A DNA stretch of 63,751 bases, from NCBI GenBank assembly GCA_020723935.1, contig DYHY01000001.1, forward strand, positions 51,265-115,015. Direction: 5' to 3'. This document shows, piece by piece, positions 1,963-56,269 of this stretch. Below the pieces are notes generated by a model. It was not told the DNA's origin, made no database searches, and saw nothing but the letters and a program-made list of their open reading frames with translations. The stretch is from Candidatus Micrarchaeum sp. GTDB lineage: Archaea; SpSt-1190; DYHY01. Each line of letters opens with the position of its first letter. Positions within the stretch are counted from its first letter, which is position 1. The translations under genes were made by a program, and so were the position numbers.

Positions 1963-2870
1963 CTACGCCGCGGGGTGGTCGAGGAGGCCGCGCCACAGCT
2001 CCAGGGTCCCTTGCAAGTAGTCCCTCAAGCGCTTCCAGCTCCTGACGGATGCGGCCGCCCGGGCGACGGACGCCGGTTTCGAATAGAACCTGCGGAACGC
2101 GCGGCGGCATGCGCCTTCCGATATTGAGGGGCGTTCTCCCGCAAGCGGCGTCCAGGGGTGCGGGATGAACACGTCGAAGGAGGCGAGGGTCGGCTCCAAG
2201 GACAGGACGAACTCCACACAGGAATCTAGGTCTGCGTCCCTCTGCCACGGGAGGCCCACTATCACGTGCGCCATTGTCTCTATGCCTGCTGCCCGGCAGC
2301 CGGCGAACGCGCGCATTATCCGGCGGATGGTAGTGCCCTTGCTCATCCTATTCAGGTCCTGCTGGAGCCCCGATTCCACGCCGAACTTGAGCATGTGGCA
2401 GCCGGCCCTCGCCATCAGGGCGAGGAGGCCGGAATCGACCGAATCCACCCTGCTGTTGGAGATCCAGGAAAGGCCCAGGCGCCGGGAGATCATCCCCTCG
2501 CACAGGTCCCTCGCGAAGGCGCGGTCGAGGGCCAGGTTCTCGTCGCGGAAGAAGACCTCCTTGAACCCCTGCGAGCGTATCTCCTCCAGCTCAGCGAGGA
2601 CGTTCCCCGCCGACCTGCGCCGGAAGGGCGTGCGCCTCGCGGTGCAGAAGGAGCACCCGTGCGGGCATCCGCGCGTCGCGAGGACGGTGGTCACGGGCTC
2701 GCGCAGGGCGATGGGGTTCGAATACATAGCATGGTCGACCAGGTCGCGGGCCGCGAAGGGAAGGGAATCGAGGTCGCGCACGTACGCCGGCTTCCTGACC
2801 GAGCGTGGCCGTGCGAGGAAGGAGGGCAGGCTCGCCTCAATGTCGCCCGCGAGGACGTAGTCGACGCCGG
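1963..2870 (-). pseudogene. Radical SAM protein fragment, 5' part missing
   Basis: About 300 codons of a cobalamin-binding-type radical SAM protein. It begins abruptly inside the end of the B12-binding domain (GVDYVLAGDIEASLPSFL). It continues through the linker (LDSLPFAARDLVD), the Fe-S motif RGCPHGCSFC (C-x3-C-x2-C) and the TIM-barrel core (NSRVDSVDSGLLALM, KFGVESGLQQ, HVIVGLPW). The catalytic core looks intact, but no start codon or N-terminal domain precedes it. Upstream it is joined out of frame to the beginning of a carbamoyltransferase. The product, if any were made, would lack about 150 N-terminal residues. Relatives in the window lie at 4423, 10923 and 59770. Confidence 0.7.
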
Positions 2871-3275
2871 CCGGAAGCCGTGCCTGGCGAGCTTGCGCGA
2901 GATTATCCCCTTGGAGGCTGCGCGGAAGAGGCCGCTGGAGCCTAAATCCCCGAGCTTGTATTCCACAAGCTTGTTCGCCGAGTCGAAGGCGGGCTTGCCC
3001 ATTGACCTTCGGGAATACGCATAGAAGCCGTCCTTCATCCCGGGAAAGACGCGCGTGAGGAAGTTCGTGAAGTCGGACGTGCATCCGGCGACGGAATCGA
3101 AGTCGGAGGGCGAAAGTTTGAGGACCGCGAGGGCAGAGAGGAGGGCCTTGTCGGGGAAGCAGTTCTCCTGCTTCCGCCTCGTGAACCGCTCCTCGTTCGC
3201 CGCGAAGAGGATTTTCCCGTCCTCCACGACCGCGACGCCCGAGTCGTGGCCGTCCCATATCCCCAGCGTGAGCAT
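2871..3275 (-). pseudogene. NodU/CmcH-type carbamoyltransferase, N-terminal fragment
   Basis: Starts at ATG 3275, about 27 nt downstream of a minus-strand TATA element at 3300-3307. The first 130 or so residues (LGIWDGHDSGVAVVEDG, AANEERFTRRKQENCFP) match the N-terminus of O-carbamoyltransferases (NodU/TobZ), which move the carbamoyl group of carbamoyl phosphate to a sugar hydroxyl. These enzymes are normally 500-600 aa. Here the match ends near KLARHGF at 2874-2894, where another frame carrying a radical SAM protein begins. The acyl-carbamate-forming C-terminal domain is absent, so this is a remnant with an intact promoter. Confidence 0.7.
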
Positions 3276-9177: not shown

Positions 9178-10230
9178 GTGACGGTCTTCGCTGCGGCGTG
9201 CGCGGCCGCAGTCGTCCTCCTCGTTCTCCTGGCGTCGTCCGGCAGGGGGAACGCGATCGGGACGTGCGCGGGCTGCAACATCCTAATCGTCGAGATAGAT
9301 CTCTGAACCCGTCCCACATCGGCGCGTACGGCTACGCCCGCAACACGACGCCCAACATTGATTCGATCGCATCCCGAGGCGTGCTCTTCGAGCAGGCATA
9401 CTCTCCCGCCAAATACACGTTCGAGGCCAACCTGTCCATCTTCACCGGGAGGAGACCCTCGGAGCACGCCAGCTCCTTCATCTACTACAACGAGACGTTC
9501 TACAAGCGGCGCCTCGGGGCGTCGGAGGAGACCCTTGCAAAGAGCCTCGCCGCCGCCGGTTACAGGACGGCTGCTTTCACGACCTCCGAGGTATACGACG
9601 AGGAGGATGTGTGTCTGCTGGGCTTCGGCGAATCCGCGCTCTACGACCGCAGGCCCTACGACGAGGAGGAGCACCCGATGCGCGACGCGCAGAGATGGAT
9701 AGGCGCGGGCGGCAGCGGCAAGCCGCCGTTCTTCGCATTGGTGCACGACGTCAGCATCCACTATCCCTGAAAGGGGGCAGGCGAGCACGCGTTCGATCCC
9801 AGATACTCCGGTCCTGTGGACAACCTGAGCCTGATGTGGGGCGCGGCGTACAACGAAGTGACGCGGGGCGAAGACGGCGCGTATTACTATTCGGGATCCG
9901 ACCTGAACGGCTCCAGAATCCGCCTTTCCGGGGCCGACGTGGCGCACATAACATCCAACTACGACTCGAGGCTGCGCAGGGCGGATGCGTTGCTTGGCGA
10001 ACTCCTGGGTTTCCTCAGGAAGGAGGGGCTCATGGAGAACACTGTGATAGCCTTCACGGCCGAGCACGGCACCGTCGTCGGGGAGGAGGACGCGTACATG
10101 TTCAGGAACAACTGGCTATGGAGGGAGAACTTCGCCGTCCCGCTGATATTGAGCATCCCGGGAGGAAGGAACGCGAGGGTCGGCGGCGGGAAATTCTCGA
10201 CAATAGAGCTCAAAGATTCCCTGCTCTCGA
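9178..10230 (+). pseudogene. Membrane-anchored or exported sulfatase, broken
   Basis: A GTG at 9178 starts an N-terminal hydrophobic helix (VTVFAAACAAAVVLLVLLASS) and CNILIVEID, the first strand of an alkaline-phosphatase-superfamily sulfatase. One base is missing near 9302; the next frame continues HIGAYGYARNTTPNIDSIAS, with the normal sulfatase spacing. TGA at 9769-9771 then interrupts the frame after DVSIHYP. Beyond it the same frame continues with FTAEHGTVVGEEDAYMFRNN (the metal-binding D/E-H-G region) and STIELKDSLLSIVGLP. The match ends near 10230, where a radical SAM sequence starts in the same frame. The Cys/Ser that becomes formylglycine would lie in PAKYTFEANLSIFTGRRP; no C/S-x-P-x-R motif is seen there, so the protein may be a phosphoglycerol or phosphoethanolamine transferase-like relative. 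Confidence 0.75.
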
Positions 10231-10870
10231 TCGTCGGCCTCCCGTACTACGCGGCCGCCCGGGTCGAGCAGATGGGCCGCGAGGTGGCGGGGCTCCTTTC
10301 CCGGAGCGGATGCGCCAACCTCGACATAGGGATAGAATCCGGGAACGAGCGGCTGAGGAGGAACGTCCTCAAGAGGAACTACACGAACGCGACGGTCGTC
10401 AGGGCCTTCGGCAACGCGGCGAAGGCGGGCCTGAGGACGAGCTCGGAGAACATCATAGGCATACCCTACGAGACGCCGGAAAACGTCATCGAGACGATAA
10501 AGCTCAACGCGAAGGTCTCGCCGTTCAAGAGCTCGGTGAACATCCTCTACCCATTCAAGGGGACGGAGCTAGCGACCTCTGCTACCGGAACGGGTGGGTG
10601 GACGAGGGGGCGCGGGAGGGGGCGGTCCTCGCGTACATGACGTCCGTCCTGAGGCTCCCGACGATAAGCTGCAGGCAGATAGAGTACTTCCGCTACAACT
10701 TCCACGCTCTGCAGAACTTCTACGCGGGGAGGCATGGGAGGATGCTGCGCTACAAGCTGATAAGCGACGTGAAGACGTTCCTCAACGAGGGGGGCATGAC
10801 GAAGATGGGGCGCATAGGCTCGATACTCCCCCTCTGGCGCGCGGTCGGCAGGTTCTTCTGGCATTTCTAG
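10231..10870 (+). pseudogene. C-terminal half of a radical SAM protein, fused to sulfatase
   Basis: From about 10230 the reading frame is homologous to the C-terminal half of the neighbouring rSAM gene (10923-12385). ARVEQMGREVAGLLSRSGC aligns with SRVESVDSEAVSLLSGSGC, then IGIESGNERLRRNV with MGIESGNEWIRRNV. The cysteine motif and N-terminal domain are absent. At about 10571 the string GAGCTAGCGACC lacks one G relative to GAGCTAGGCGACC in the paralogue, so the protein continues in another frame (DLCYRNGWVDEGA to RAVGRFFWHF) to the TAG at 10868. It is therefore a doubly broken remnant. Confidence 0.8.
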
Positions 10871-10922: not shown

Positions 10923-12385
10923 ATGCCCTTGAAGGTCCTCTTCGTGCTCCTGGATTTCTACATGGAGGGCCGCAGGCCTCACAACGGCCTCGCCGCCCTT
11001 TCCGCCAGCCTCAAGGCCGCCGGGCACAGGACGGCACTCTGCCACGTCTGGCTCTCGGACCACAACAGGTTGAGGGGGATGATCTCCTCAAAAGTGGCCT
11101 CGTTCAAGCCGGACGTCGTCGCGTTCTCCTGCACGGAAGTGGAGCACCGGCTCCTCTCCGACGCAGCTAGGTTCGTGCGCGAGGAGTTCCCGCATATCCC
11201 GGTGGTCGTCGGCGGGGCGTACGCGACCCTCGCGCCCGAGGAGGTCCTCGCCGCGACCGGCGCGCACTGCGTCTTCGTGGGCGAGGCCGATGTCAGCTTC
11301 CCGGAGTTCCTGAGGAGAATGGAGGAGGCAGGCAGGCCCCCGGCGGACGTGCGGGGGACGTGCGCCATCAGGAACGGGAAGCTGGCGCGCATACCTCCGG
11401 CGAGGCTCCCGGACCCGTGCACTCTGCCCGAGCCCGACCTCTCCCTCTTCGACAAGTCGTCCGTCGTCTTCGACGCGAGCCGCGGCGGCATGAGCAGGCG
11501 CTCCATCTATTTCGTCGCGAAGCGCGGCTGCCCCTTCCAGTACACGTACTGCGTAAACAAGCACGCGGCGGCCCTCCACGACAGGAGCGGCTCCTATCTC
11601 AGGAGCCTGGAGGTCGGGCGGGTGATAGGCGAGATAAGGCGCCTGAAGGAGCGGTACTCCTTCAACGAGATCGTCTTCAACGACGAGGTCTTCACGGGCG
11701 ACCGCGAGTGGCTGCGGGAGTTCTCGGCGGCGTACCGGCGCGAGATCGCGATCCCCTTTTTCGCCTCCTCGAGGGTCGAGTCCGTGGATTCCGAGGCAGT
11801 CTCCCTCCTCTCCGGGAGCGGGTGCAAGTGCCTGGACATGGGGATAGAGTCCGGGAACGAGTGGATAAGGAGGAACGTGTGATGGGCCGGCGGTATTCGA
11901 ACTCCACCGTCATCAAGGCCTTCTCGAAGGTCAAGGGCGCCGGGATGAGCACGAGCTCGGAGAACGTGATAGGCGTCCCGCACGAGACGGTGCGCTCGAT
12001 GCTCGAGACGGTGAAGCTCAACGCGAAGGTTGATCCCCTCAGCGCGAACGTCAACGTCTTCTACCCGTTCAGGGGGACGGAGCTAGGCGACCTCTGCCAC
12101 AAGAACGGATGGGTGGAATCGGACCTCAGGAAGATAGCCCTCTTCCCGTTCACCTCGTCGATACTGCGGATCCCGACCGCCTCCAAGGGCCAGATAGACT
12201 TCTTCTGGAACAACTTCCACGCGATGCAGAGCTTCTATTCCGGGAGGCACGGGAGGATGCTGCGCTACAAGATATCTGCGAGCGTCAAGGAAGCTCTCGG
12301 AAGCACGGGCTTCTCGGAGTTCGGCAGGTTCCAGGCCTTCGCGGGGCCCTGGAACAGAGTCAGGGCCGCGTTCAGGACGAGGTGA
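10923..12385 (+). pseudogene. B12-type radical SAM protein, frameshift and lost Fe-S cysteine
   Basis: The first 318 residues carry a B12-binding-like domain (MPLKVLFVLLDFYMEG, PDVVAFSCTEVEH, PVVVGGAYATLAPEEVL, CVFVGEADVSFPEFL) and the start of the radical SAM barrel. The cluster motif reads RGCPFQYTYC instead of RGCPFQCTYC: the middle cysteine is Tyr (TAC at 11541-11543, one G-to-A change from TGC). At about 11878 the frame is shifted by two extra bases relative to the paralogous segment at 10369. The rest (SNSTVIKAFSKVKGAG, NVFYPFRGTELGDLC, SFYSGRHGRMLRYK) follows in another frame to a TGA at 12383. Both lesions would abolish activity. It is directly followed by Trm1. Confidence 0.85.
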
Positions 12386-47892: not shown

Positions 47893-49329
47893 TCAGTCTT
47901 TCCCGGAAAGATAGCGGGCGAGGAGCCGCACCCCGAAGCCGCTAGCGCCGGCGGAAAGATACGCGCCCCCCTTTGGGGCGGCATCCATCCCGGCGATGTC
48001 AAGGTGCGCCCAGCGCGCCCCGCCCGACACGGCGGTCCTCAGGAACTCGGCGGCAAGTATCGCGTCCTCGTCCCTCGTCCAGGAGGCGTTGGAAATGTCC
48101 GCGACATCGCTCTTTATCCCCTCCGCGTAGTCCGGCCAGCCGAGGGGGAGCTCCCAGAGCCGCTCGCCGCTCTCGAGGCCCGCTCGGTAGAGATCCTTCG
48201 CCAGGGCCTCGTCGTTGGAGAAGAGGCCCGCGGCGACGTCGCCCAAGGCGACGACGCACGCGCCGGTGAGCGTCGCGAGGTCTATCACAACGTCGGGCTT
48301 GTGGTCCTTGCACGCGAAGGCGAGAGCGTCGGAGAGGATGAGCCTGCCTTCCGCGTCGGTGTTGAGTATCTCTATTGTCTTCCCCGAATAGGATTTCACG
48401 ATGTCCCCGGGCCTCGTCGCGGTCCCCGAGGGCATGTTCTCGACGGCCGGGACGATCGCGACGATGTGCATCGGGAGCTTTAGGAGCGCCGCGAGGCGGA
48501 CGATGGCGAGCGCTGCCACCCCTCCGTTCTTGTCGAACTTCATCTCGTCCATCGCCTTGGCCGGCTTGATGGAGATGCCGCCGGAATCGAAGCACACGCC
48601 CTTGCCGACGATCGCGACCTTCCTCTTGGCGATCCCGGACTTGGGGACGTATTCGAGGACTATGAGCTTCGGCTCCTCGGCGCTGCCCTTGGCAACCGCG
48701 AGCATCGCGCCGAAGCCTATCTTCTCCAGCTCCTGGCGCGAGTACGCTTTGTAGGAGAGGCCCAGGACCTTGGCTTCCCTGGCCGCGACGAGCGAGAGCA
48801 TCGTGGGCGTCGCGACGTTCGCCGGCTCGTTCTGGATCTCCCTCGCCCAGTTCGTCCCCTCGGCGACGGCTTTCGCCGTGACAATCTCGGGCGAGCTCGG
48901 CACCGGGAGGTGGACCGTCTTGAGGAACACCTGATCCTTACCGTTTCCGTTCCCGCCGCCAGAGGCGCCGTCGCTGGAAGTCTTGTATTTCACGAAGGAG
49001 TAGGACGCGAGGATCGCGCCCTCGACGAAGGCGGCGACGAGCCTCCTGTCGGAGAGGACCGCCCTTGCGGTGTCGCCCGAGAGGCGAAGGCTCCCCTTGC
49101 CGAGGGCCGCGCGCGCATAGGTGACGGCCTTTCCCGCCGCGCGCCTCACGGTCTCAGCGTCCAGCCCCTTGCGCGGGCCCAGGCCCACCGAGAACGAAAG
49201 CCTGCCCGTGGGAAGGACCCTTAGGAGCTTTCCGTGCTCGCCGGATTCCTCAAGAAGGACGAGGCGCGCGCAGGGGCCGGGCGACGGGGGAGAAGAGCGC
49301 CCTGCCTTTGCGAAGGAGACGTCCACCAT
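47893..49329 (-). CDS. pepA: Leucyl aminopeptidase (M17), copy 1
   Basis: A 478-aa protein from ATG 49329. A divergent N-terminal regulatory domain (about 1-130) is followed by the M17 catalytic domain. VGKGVCFDSGGISIKPAKAM supplies the metal-binding Lys and Asp, NTDAEGRLILSDAL is the PepA signature, and TGACVVALGDVAAGLF follows. It cleaves N-terminal residues of peptides with two metal ions. The middle 861 bp is identical in sequence to the tandem copy at 49359-50804, whereas both ends are only about half identical, a sign of gene conversion. Its start is 29 bp past the stop of copy 2; both are probably one transcript. Confidence 0.95.
   Translation of the reverse strand: MVDVSFAKAGRSSPPSPGPCARLVLLEESGEHGKLLRVLPTGRLSFSVGLGPRKGLDAETVRRAAGKAVTYARAALGKGSLRLSGDTARAVLSDRRLVAAFVEGAILASYSFVKYKTSSDGASGGGNGNGKDQVFLKTVHLPVPSSPEIVTAKAVAEGTNWAREIQNEPANVATPTMLSLVAAREAKVLGLSYKAYSRQELEKIGFGAMLAVAKGSAEEPKLIVLEYVPKSGIAKRKVAIVGKGVCFDSGGISIKPAKAMDEMKFDKNGGVAALAIVRLAALLKLPMHIVAIVPAVENMPSGTATRPGDIVKSYSGKTIEILNTDAEGRLILSDALAFACKDHKPDVVIDLATLTGACVVALGDVAAGLFSNDEALAKDLYRAGLESGERLWELPLGWPDYAEGIKSDVADISNASWTRDEDAILAAEFLRTAVSGGARWAHLDIAGMDAAPKGGAYLSAGASGFGVRLLARYLSGKD
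48145..49005. repeat. Perfect 861-bp internal repeat, copy 1
   Basis: Every base I compared from 48145 to 49005 matches 49620-50480 at an offset of 1475. The first mismatch on the left is 48144 (G against C) and on the right 49006 (C against T). It covers the catalytic half of the first aminopeptidase. It implies very recent conversion or an assembly collapse. Confidence 0.9.
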
Positions 49330-49358
49330 TTCCCGGGCGCCGGAGGTCCTCCCGTTCC

Positions 49359-50804
49359 CTACTTGGCCTTGCCGGCGGATTCCTGCAGGTATCTCGTGAC
49401 TATCCGTATCCCGAAGCCGGTCGCGCCCTTGGAAAGGTAGGGCTTGGGCGACGTCGCCCAAGCCGTGCCCGCGATGTCAAGGTGGGCCCATTTCCGATCG
49501 TCTATGAATGCCTTGAGGAAGCTGGCCCCCGCCGTGGCGCCGGCCTGGCCCTCCTGGCCCAGGTTCTTGAGGTCGGCGATGTCGCTCTTCACCTTCTCGT
49601 CGTAGTCCTTCCACATGACGGGGAGCTCCCAGAGCCGCTCGCCGCTCTCGAGGCCCGCTCGGTAGAGATCCTTCGCCAGGGCCTCGTCGTTGGAGAAGAG
49701 GCCCGCGGCGACGTCGCCCAAGGCGACGACGCACGCGCCGGTGAGCGTCGCGAGGTCTATCACAACGTCGGGCTTGTGGTCCTTGCACGCGAAGGCGAGA
49801 GCGTCGGAGAGGATGAGCCTGCCTTCCGCGTCGGTGTTGAGTATCTCTATTGTCTTCCCCGAATAGGATTTCACGATGTCCCCGGGCCTCGTCGCGGTCC
49901 CCGAGGGCATGTTCTCGACGGCCGGGACGATCGCGACGATGTGCATCGGGAGCTTTAGGAGCGCCGCGAGGCGGACGATGGCGAGCGCTGCCACCCCTCC
50001 GTTCTTGTCGAACTTCATCTCGTCCATCGCCTTGGCCGGCTTGATGGAGATGCCGCCGGAATCGAAGCACACGCCCTTGCCGACGATCGCGACCTTCCTC
50101 TTGGCGATCCCGGACTTGGGGACGTATTCGAGGACTATGAGCTTCGGCTCCTCGGCGCTGCCCTTGGCAACCGCGAGCATCGCGCCGAAGCCTATCTTCT
50201 CCAGCTCCTGGCGCGAGTACGCTTTGTAGGAGAGGCCCAGGACCTTGGCTTCCCTGGCCGCGACGAGCGAGAGCATCGTGGGCGTCGCGACGTTCGCCGG
50301 CTCGTTCTGGATCTCCCTCGCCCAGTTCGTCCCCTCGGCGACGGCTTTCGCCGTGACAATCTCGGGCGAGCTCGGCACCGGGAGGTGGACCGTCTTGAGG
50401 AACACCTGATCCTTACCGTTTCCGTTCCCGCCGCCAGAGGCGCCGTCGCTGGAAGTCTTGTATTTCACGAAGGAGTAGGATGCGAGGATCGCGCCCTCGA
50501 CGAAGGCGCAGAGGAGCTGCCTGCTCGCGAGGAGCTTCTTGGAGCTCTTGGGCGAGAGGACGAGGTCCTCCTTCTGGAGGACGGACTGGGCGTACGTCAC
50601 CGCCTTTCCCGCCGCGCGCCTCACGGCCTCCGCGTCAAGGCTCTTGGCATCCCCAAGGCCCACGGAGAACTCGTGGGGCCCCAAGGGGGTGATTTTCAGG
50701 GCCTTCCCGGCGTCCGCCGACTCCTCGTGCAGGACGAGCGAGACGAGGGGATTCTTGCCTTTCGCAGCGGAAGCCTTCCTTTCCGAGAAAACCAGGTCAA
50801 CCAT
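49359..50804 (-). CDS. pepA: Leucyl aminopeptidase (M17), copy 2
   Basis: A 481-aa protein starting at ATG 50804, 26 nt from a bidirectional TATA box. The M17 catalytic motifs are the same as in copy 1 (CFDSGGISIKPAKAM, NTDAEGR). The N-terminal 135 residues (NPLVSLVLHEESADAG, LKITPLGPHEFSVGLGD) and the last 90 (VMWKDYDEKVKSDIADL, YLSKGATGFGIRIVTRYLQES) differ clearly from copy 1. M17 enzymes form hexamers, so mixed assemblies of the two copies are possible. It is upstream of copy 1 in the operon. Confidence 0.95.
   Translation of the reverse strand: MVDLVFSERKASAAKGKNPLVSLVLHEESADAGKALKITPLGPHEFSVGLGDAKSLDAEAVRRAAGKAVTYAQSVLQKEDLVLSPKSSKKLLASRQLLCAFVEGAILASYSFVKYKTSSDGASGGGNGNGKDQVFLKTVHLPVPSSPEIVTAKAVAEGTNWAREIQNEPANVATPTMLSLVAAREAKVLGLSYKAYSRQELEKIGFGAMLAVAKGSAEEPKLIVLEYVPKSGIAKRKVAIVGKGVCFDSGGISIKPAKAMDEMKFDKNGGVAALAIVRLAALLKLPMHIVAIVPAVENMPSGTATRPGDIVKSYSGKTIEILNTDAEGRLILSDALAFACKDHKPDVVIDLATLTGACVVALGDVAAGLFSNDEALAKDLYRAGLESGERLWELPVMWKDYDEKVKSDIADLKNLGQEGQAGATAGASFLKAFIDDRKWAHLDIAGTAWATSPKPYLSKGATGFGIRIVTRYLQESAGKAK
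49620..50480. repeat. Perfect 861-bp internal repeat, copy 2
   Basis: Identical to 48145-49005 (see that entry). The outer parts of both genes differ at many positions, so the identity stops sharply at both ends. Direct orientation, 1475 bp apart. Confidence 0.9.
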
Positions 50805-50826: not shown

Positions 50827-50834
50827 TTTTAAAC
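50827..50834. promoter_or_regulatory. Bidirectional TATA element
   Basis: TTTTAAAC is 26 nt from the aminopeptidase ATG (50804, minus) and 26 nt from the GTG at 50856 (plus). This equal spacing is the reason for choosing the GTG start of the OB-fold gene. Confidence 0.55.
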
Positions 50835-54497: not shown

Positions 54498-56269
54498 GGC
54501 GCCTCGTTCCTTTCACGCCGGGGCTTCTTCCCCTTCTTTTCCTGGGGCCTGAGCTCGGGAAGCCAGGAGAACTTCTTCTGGAGGGACGCTGCGTAGAGCT
54601 TCCTCGGCTCCATGCCCATCGCCTTGGCCCAGGCGGAGTAGACGCGCGGGTCGATGTAGTTCCTCAGGGACGTGTTCAGGTTGTAGTCGCGCACGGCGAC
54701 GGAAAGCTCCAGCTCCCGCTTCACCCTGCCTATCCGCTTCGCTGCCTTCTTCCCCGCCGGCCCCTTCTCGAGGCCCGCGAGCTTCTCCCTCTTCTTCGCG
54801 AGCGCATCCTCCCACCCCTTGGGCGGCGTGCGCTTGTGGTTGCACACCTTCGCGGCGTCAAGGTTCGCCATCCTGCCCCAGTAGATCTTCTCGAACTCCG
54901 GAGCGGACCTGTCGACTGGCGCCCTGGCGAGGGACTCCCGGACGGTGCTCGTCGCGTGGAACGTCCTGAAGACCTTTGCAGACAGGCCCTTGGCGCAGGA
55001 CGAGAGGAAGCGGTTGACGCGCGAGGACGTGACACCGTCGAAGAGCGGGTCCTGCGGCCTCTTGCGCGAGAGCGCCTCCCTCAGGTAGGCTTCGAGGAGC
55101 CCGTCCTCTTCGGTCACGACCGATATCTCCTTCTGCCAACGCACGGAATCCTTCCCCAGGAAATCGAAGAGTATCTTCCCGCCGGAGAGCGAGACGTGCT
55201 CGGCGCGCAGGGTGGATGCGCCGACGGTGTCCGCCTCGTCCTTCTCCTTCTCGTCGCCGACGCGCATCGCCAGGCGGTCTATCAGGTAGGCGACGGCGGC
55301 AAGCTTCCTCGTCTCGGCATCCCTGGAACGCAGGGACCCGCTTATCGCGGAGCGCACCTGGGCGATCTTCTTGGAGAGCAGGCGGGCCTTGTCGTACTTG
55401 GCCATCTCGTTCTCCTGGCGGATCCGCGAGAGCTCGGATAGCCACATGTACTTCTCCTTCCCGGTGAGGCCGTCGATCCATGACGCGAGCCACGTCGACG
55501 TGTGATCGTGGACGACCGCCTTCCATTTCCCGGGCGGGACGGGCGCGCCCTCCCCGAGGTTGAGTATTATCTCCTCCGCGCACGCCTGGGGTTTCCAGCG
55601 CCCGCGCAGGGGATGCTGCCCGCGGCCCATGAAGAGCCCCGCGGGCTCCACGACGTATCCCGCACGCTCGACCCTCTGGCCGTCAACCTGCGCCCAGCCG
55701 TACCTCTCCTTGAGCTTCTCGCGGGCGGCCTTCCTTTCGGCGGCGATCGCCTTCTTCTCCTCCTTGGTCACCGCCGCTGCCGCGGCGCGCTCCTCGGCCT
55801 GCGCCCTCTCGATTTCAGAGATGTTCATCTCGCCGATCCCCAGGCCCTGCTGGAGTTCCGGCGGGAGGGTCTTTGCGAAATCGGAAAGGAAATTGTCGAC
55901 GAACGCGGGGTCGTCGCAGTAGGGCGTGCCCTTCTTCCTCGCAAAGGAAGCGAGCATCTCCTCCTGGAGGGGCGAGAGCTTGAATTGCTTCCCGCGGATT
56001 TTGACAAGGAAGCCGCGGAAAGCATAGGGCGGAGGGAATGCGACGCCCGCGTGGACAAGGGTCTTCCAGCGCGGCTTCTTGGAGGGGGCTTTGGGCGCGC
56101 CGGCTCCTGCGGCTCCTGCGGCTCCTGCGGCTCCTGTGGCTCCTGCGGCTCCTGCGGCTCCTGTGGCTCCTGTGGCTCCTGTGGCTCCTGTGGCTCCTGT
56201 GGCTCCTGCGGCTCCGCCGTCCTTCTCCTCCCTGCGCGCATCCTCTGCGGGGGTGTTTTCCGAAGACAT
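54494..56269 (-). CDS. DNA topoisomerase IB
   Basis: A 591-aa protein. N-terminal collagen-like Gly-Ala-Thr/Ala triplets (about residues 20-60). The eukaryote-type core N-terminal domain follows ([33 protein letters not shown]), then the catalytic domain: [21 protein letters not shown] (Arg), [13 protein letters not shown] (Lys), [11 protein letters not shown] (Arg/His) and [14 protein letters not shown], where Tyr 538 is the covalent nucleophile. It relaxes supercoils through a 3'-phosphotyrosine. In archaea the IB type is known from Thaumarchaeota and few others. A TATA element (56295-56302) is 29 nt from ATG 56269. The basic linker and tail ([11 protein letters not shown]) are typical. Confidence 0.93.
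56102..56214. repeat. 9-bp tandem repeat in topoisomerase IB N-terminus
   Basis: About twelve units of GGCTCCTGC/T on the plus strand encode Gly-Ala-Ala or Gly-Ala-Thr triplets on the minus strand. All units differ only by the last base. Such arrays change copy number easily by slippage without breaking the frame. Confidence 0.9.

Follow-up and report, generated by a model that had tools for sequence, protein, structure and literature searches.

Gene conversion between paralogues that share an operon has been described in Archaea for mtrA-1 and mtrA-2 of the Methanococcales and Methanomicrobiales, whose shared functional domain is homogenised (PMC4632066). Similarly, the release factors RF1 and RF2 exhibit conversion confined to their functionally shared domain, while the parts that determine specificity stay different (PMC4530459), and tuf, like other prokaryotic genes in concerted evolution, undergoes a long-lasting, recurrent homogenisation of paralogues within the genome (PMC6053082). 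Peptidases do not appear in the main text of the last of these studies, and the titles and abstracts retrieved for M17 combined with gene conversion contained nothing on topic. The tandem M17 leucyl aminopeptidase genes reported here, which we call U (upstream) and D (downstream), resemble mtrA-1/mtrA-2 in being archaeal and in having an apparently homogenised core with other parts kept different. However, mtrA conversion recurs in many species, and mtrA-2 has, through a fusion, acquired a distinct membrane segment, whereas our locus involves one genome, one visible event, and no fused domain. As with RF1/RF2, the putative conversion is domain-limited and between paralogues, but the release factors are bacterial, separate genes of distinct function, for which old events were detected by phylogeny, while U and D are tandem, archaeal, and share a tract without any silent change. 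As with tuf, paralogues appear to have been homogenised within one genome, although recurrence of the mtrA or tuf type was not seen, as the other sampled genomes of the class have no second M17 gene. As we read it, the locus is a tidy example of an already known process, and its interest lies chiefly in how clean and recent the tract is; if real, it provides a fresh conversion tract with clear limits, from an archaeal lineage that has small genomes and few sequenced relatives.

Both genes lie on the reverse strand of the window (the whole 63,751-nucleotide stretch analysed). Gene U (49359..50804; an open reading frame of 481 aa) matches the catalytic domain PF00883 (E 1.2e-116) and the N-domain PF02789 (E 6.4e-10), and gene D (47893..49329; 478 aa) matches the same two models (E 3e-112 and 2.6e-8, respectively), all above the Pfam cut-offs. 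The listed open reading frame of D is longer, extending to a TTG start at 49461, and we placed its start at the ATG at 49329, which aligns with that of U. Only 29 bp (49330..49358) separate the genes, which probably form one transcription unit, and a TTTAAA on the same strand (50828..50833), 24-29 nt upstream of the U start codon, is a possible archaeal TATA box. Like typical M17 enzymes (PepA), the products align with solved PepA/LAP structures and conserve the metal ligands and the catalytic Lys and Arg, whose roles we assume to be those established for bovine LAP; unlike them, they occur as a tandem pair, and D is altered at nearly invariant C-terminal positions. Both reading frames are intact, and both genes look functional.

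Codons 109-395 of U (49620..50480) are identical, base for base, to the corresponding part of D (48145..49005). The match is as an earlier note on this DNA had described. In this draft assembly its longest uninterrupted run is exactly 861 bp, with the copies offset by 1475, and the 1.14-Mb genome holds these two copies of the tract, both on the same contig. The similarity extends slightly beyond the length given in that note. At codon 108, there is a single silent mismatch (GCA in U, GCG in D), followed by 27 further matching bases, such that 27 of the 28 bases at 50481..50508 in U (codons 100-108 plus one base) equal those at 49006..49033 in D, with the flank beyond being much less identical. 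Hence, the original tract probably spanned ~889 bp and underwent one later silent change; alternatively, its upstream boundary may lie at codon 108, inside a locally conserved stretch. Both ends fall at homologous codons of the two genes, and chance is not a possible source of the identity. Outside the tract, codons 61-67 of the two genes are also identical in DNA (49129-49149 and 50604-50624), which is perhaps what a small conversion of earlier date left behind, or else a coincidence within a conserved motif. A mobile element or diversity-generating origin of the tracts was considered and rejected, given that merely the C-terminus of U, 29 bp, and the N-terminus of D lie between them.

Beyond the tract, the two genes are strongly diverged. 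Over codons 1-108, U and D share 62% of DNA and 53% of protein positions, and over codons 396-481, 57% and 45%; the prior description of the gene ends as about half identical is thus right. By the Nei-Gojobori method, dS is 0.95 and dN 0.51 in the N-terminal flank, and 1.01 and 0.57 in the C-terminal flank, while within codons 109-395 all 212 silent and 649 non-silent sites are unchanged. Even with the codon-108 change included (codons 100-395), dS is 0.005. A tract far more alike than its flanks, silent sites included, is what interlocus gene conversion leaves behind, and near-saturated silent divergence on both sides of an unchanged tract points to conversion long after duplication. The earlier note had offered two options, a very recent conversion or the merging of the copies by an assembler, and these are indeed the right ones to weigh. 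The N-domains, at their 53% identity, are sisters in the N-domain tree (97/89), so that the duplication is older than the homogenisation. A tree built from the catalytic domain only would misdate this duplication as very recent, while the flanks reveal its old age.

The simplest account, and in our judgment the probable one, is that two tandem duplicates of long standing recently underwent gene conversion. An M17 gene would have been tandemly duplicated long ago, giving rise to U and D, which drifted down to ~50% protein identity. The neighbours would then have become misaligned, with RadA-type strand invasion and repair copying leading, in a single recent event, to one gene being overwritten along ~861-889 bp by homologous sequence of its neighbour. 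Spared by this event, the N-domain and the final 86 residues would have kept their differences, with both genes still in frame and presumably still functioning. The genome encodes RadA (split across two contig ends) and a second Rad51-family gene. Counting against conversion, a search of the genome, which is 91% complete, did not recover the Holliday-junction resolvase Hjc, and direct repeats this long and this close would be expected to be lost by deletion over time. Prokaryotic conversion tracts range from a few hundred bases in bacteria up to several kilobases in Haloferax volcanii (PMC8223754), making the length observed here ordinary.

Other histories could yield the same arrangement, beginning with an error of assembly, to which we assign a small but appreciable chance. 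Truly different tracts could have been merged by the assembler, or one copied into the other at gap closing; in an in-R-M-R-out loop, the contig can be routed twice through the collapsed repeat, rendering the copies identical by construction. In line with this, the genome is a draft of 47 contigs, and a contig break interrupts RadA. No other long exact repeat turned up in the ~96 kb of the contig that were scanned. The tract begins and ends within locally conserved sequence, which is also where a chimeric path would be expected to join, and other genes of the window carry frameshifts or resemble chimeras. However, assemblers merge near-identical sequences only, and clearly different copies stay apart. 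Merging would therefore require copies that were already nearly identical, accounting for only a few differences, and recent homogenisation would be needed even in that version. A gap-filling error is the version that could, in principle, overwrite a quite different tract and abolish the finding. Against it, U and D are connected in a normal gene order by the sequence that separates the tracts, both frames are undisturbed, and the silent edge difference was retained, although this last is compatible with both readings.

Two further scenarios concern the history of the pair itself. Unequal crossovers between the copies, with an expansion to three genes and a subsequent deletion that left one copy's tract in both, are permitted by the same-strand tandem arrangement and would leave an end product indistinguishable from that of conversion. 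Yet they need at least two events and a lost intermediate, and no third copy or remnant is seen, such that we consider them very unlikely. That the duplication itself is recent, and that it is the flanks rather than the middle that were replaced or evolved extremely fast, could draw on the failure of the C-terminal flanks to group in the tree and on the long branch of the D flank (1.26). We give this virtually no credence, as the N-domains are sisters with far-diverged silent sites, protein-level selection does not speed up silent sites, and replacement of both ends from distant homologues is the less simple account.

Under the conversion that we favour, the direction of transfer can be tentatively addressed, with U weakly favoured as the donor and D as the recipient. 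In the C-terminal flank tree, U clusters with the very Micrarchaeota that the tract joins (89/97), while D does not, although an AU test did not reject D joining U there (p 0.10). Among flank columns conserved at 90%, U keeps 18 of 18 and D 15 of 18, while at 80% conservation the two are tied (21 of 24 each). Codon usage in U fits the tract slightly better, with a log-likelihood difference of 6.3 against a bootstrap SD of 6.8. Identity to homologues is a weak guide to the donor, as are codon usage, conserved columns, and the tree.

With regard to the enzymes, the tract sets in shortly before the N-domain ends and breaks off within the catalytic domain, such that its ends do not match domain borders; it covers the N-domain end, the linker, and the greater part of the catalytic domain. 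Judging from motif positions and from alignment to solved M17 structures, all metal ligands and catalytic residues lie inside it, including the motifs KGVCFD, SIKP, MKFD, and NTDAEGR (U 243-329). The N-domains and the last 86 residues still differ. The inhibitor-binding residues listed for bovine LAP include I421, A451, and M454 (PMC7180978). Counted along the structure alignments, all three positions come after the tract: I421 corresponds to L415 in U and A415 in D, M454 corresponds to A448 in U and D448 in D, and A451 is kept in both. The last 86 residues are predicted to line part of the S1 pocket. At position 448, D carries an Asp where 27 of 29 representatives carry Ala, and it deviates from U at nearly invariant C-terminal positions (G422D, A448D, and T462S in U numbering). 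These differing pocket positions may bear on specificity. If real, the conversion made chimeric enzymes with a core common to both and a different, specificity-related end. One could further hypothesize that the tract ends are maintained by selection: either U and D form mixed hexamers, or conversion keeps a common core uniform, and differences in the N-domains and along the C-terminal rim of the S1 pocket (L415/A448 in U, A415/D448 in D) are retained to provide two substrate preferences; we regard this as rather doubtful.

The deeper origin of the pair can be approached through its relatives. The only other genome sampled from the family keeps the genes on either side of the site in order, with a ZIP transporter and an unknown ORF between them, and no M17 gene was found in that genome, which is 84% complete. 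Each of six other class members carries just one M17 gene, and in the tract tree those genes cluster as a separate clade (100/99). The U/D tract, by comparison, joins Micrarchaeota with moderate support (89/91) and stands apart from the other M17 genes of the class, so that lateral gain followed by tandem duplication is likely. At 93 homologous loci, the sampled surrounding DNA held no second M17 gene. A scan of genome contigs for closer relatives gave a best match of 51% identity, and a plasmid search returned only distant pepA genes.

The assembly and the neighbouring DNA offer several observations in their own right. Nearby genes for PCNA and a tRNA splicing endonuclease identify this draft genome as archaeal, and some of its contigs are masked with N. 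RadA is cut by a contig break at which the end of contig C9 and the start of contig C33 overlap by 9 bases, and the starts of contigs C9 and C20 share 43 bp; these contig-end overlaps bear no clear k-mer signature of the assembler type. Frameshifted and apparently chimeric genes lie on the same contig as U and D, and its quality therefore deserves a check. Specifically, a sulfatase-family gene (9198-10640, forward strand) switches from one frame to a second near 9770-9816 and continues directly into the C-terminal half of a radical SAM protein, the rest of which is read in another frame. A second radical SAM gene (10923-11882) is broken by a frameshift near 11870, and neighbouring paralogous radical SAM stretches (10293-10756 and 11805-12271) are 72% identical over 479 bp. 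At 1963-3275 on the reverse strand, a carbamoyltransferase N-terminus, comprising about the first 60 domain residues, abuts a radical SAM gene whose frame overlaps with it; this looks like a broken or chimeric gene. A repeat of ~106 bp, 91.5% identical, has two copies ahead of the window, ~7.7 kb and ~0.1 kb from its start, the second of which ends at a run of N. Finally, a 9-bp unit (CGGCTCCTG) is repeated ~12.8 times at 56101-56215, with 96% matches.
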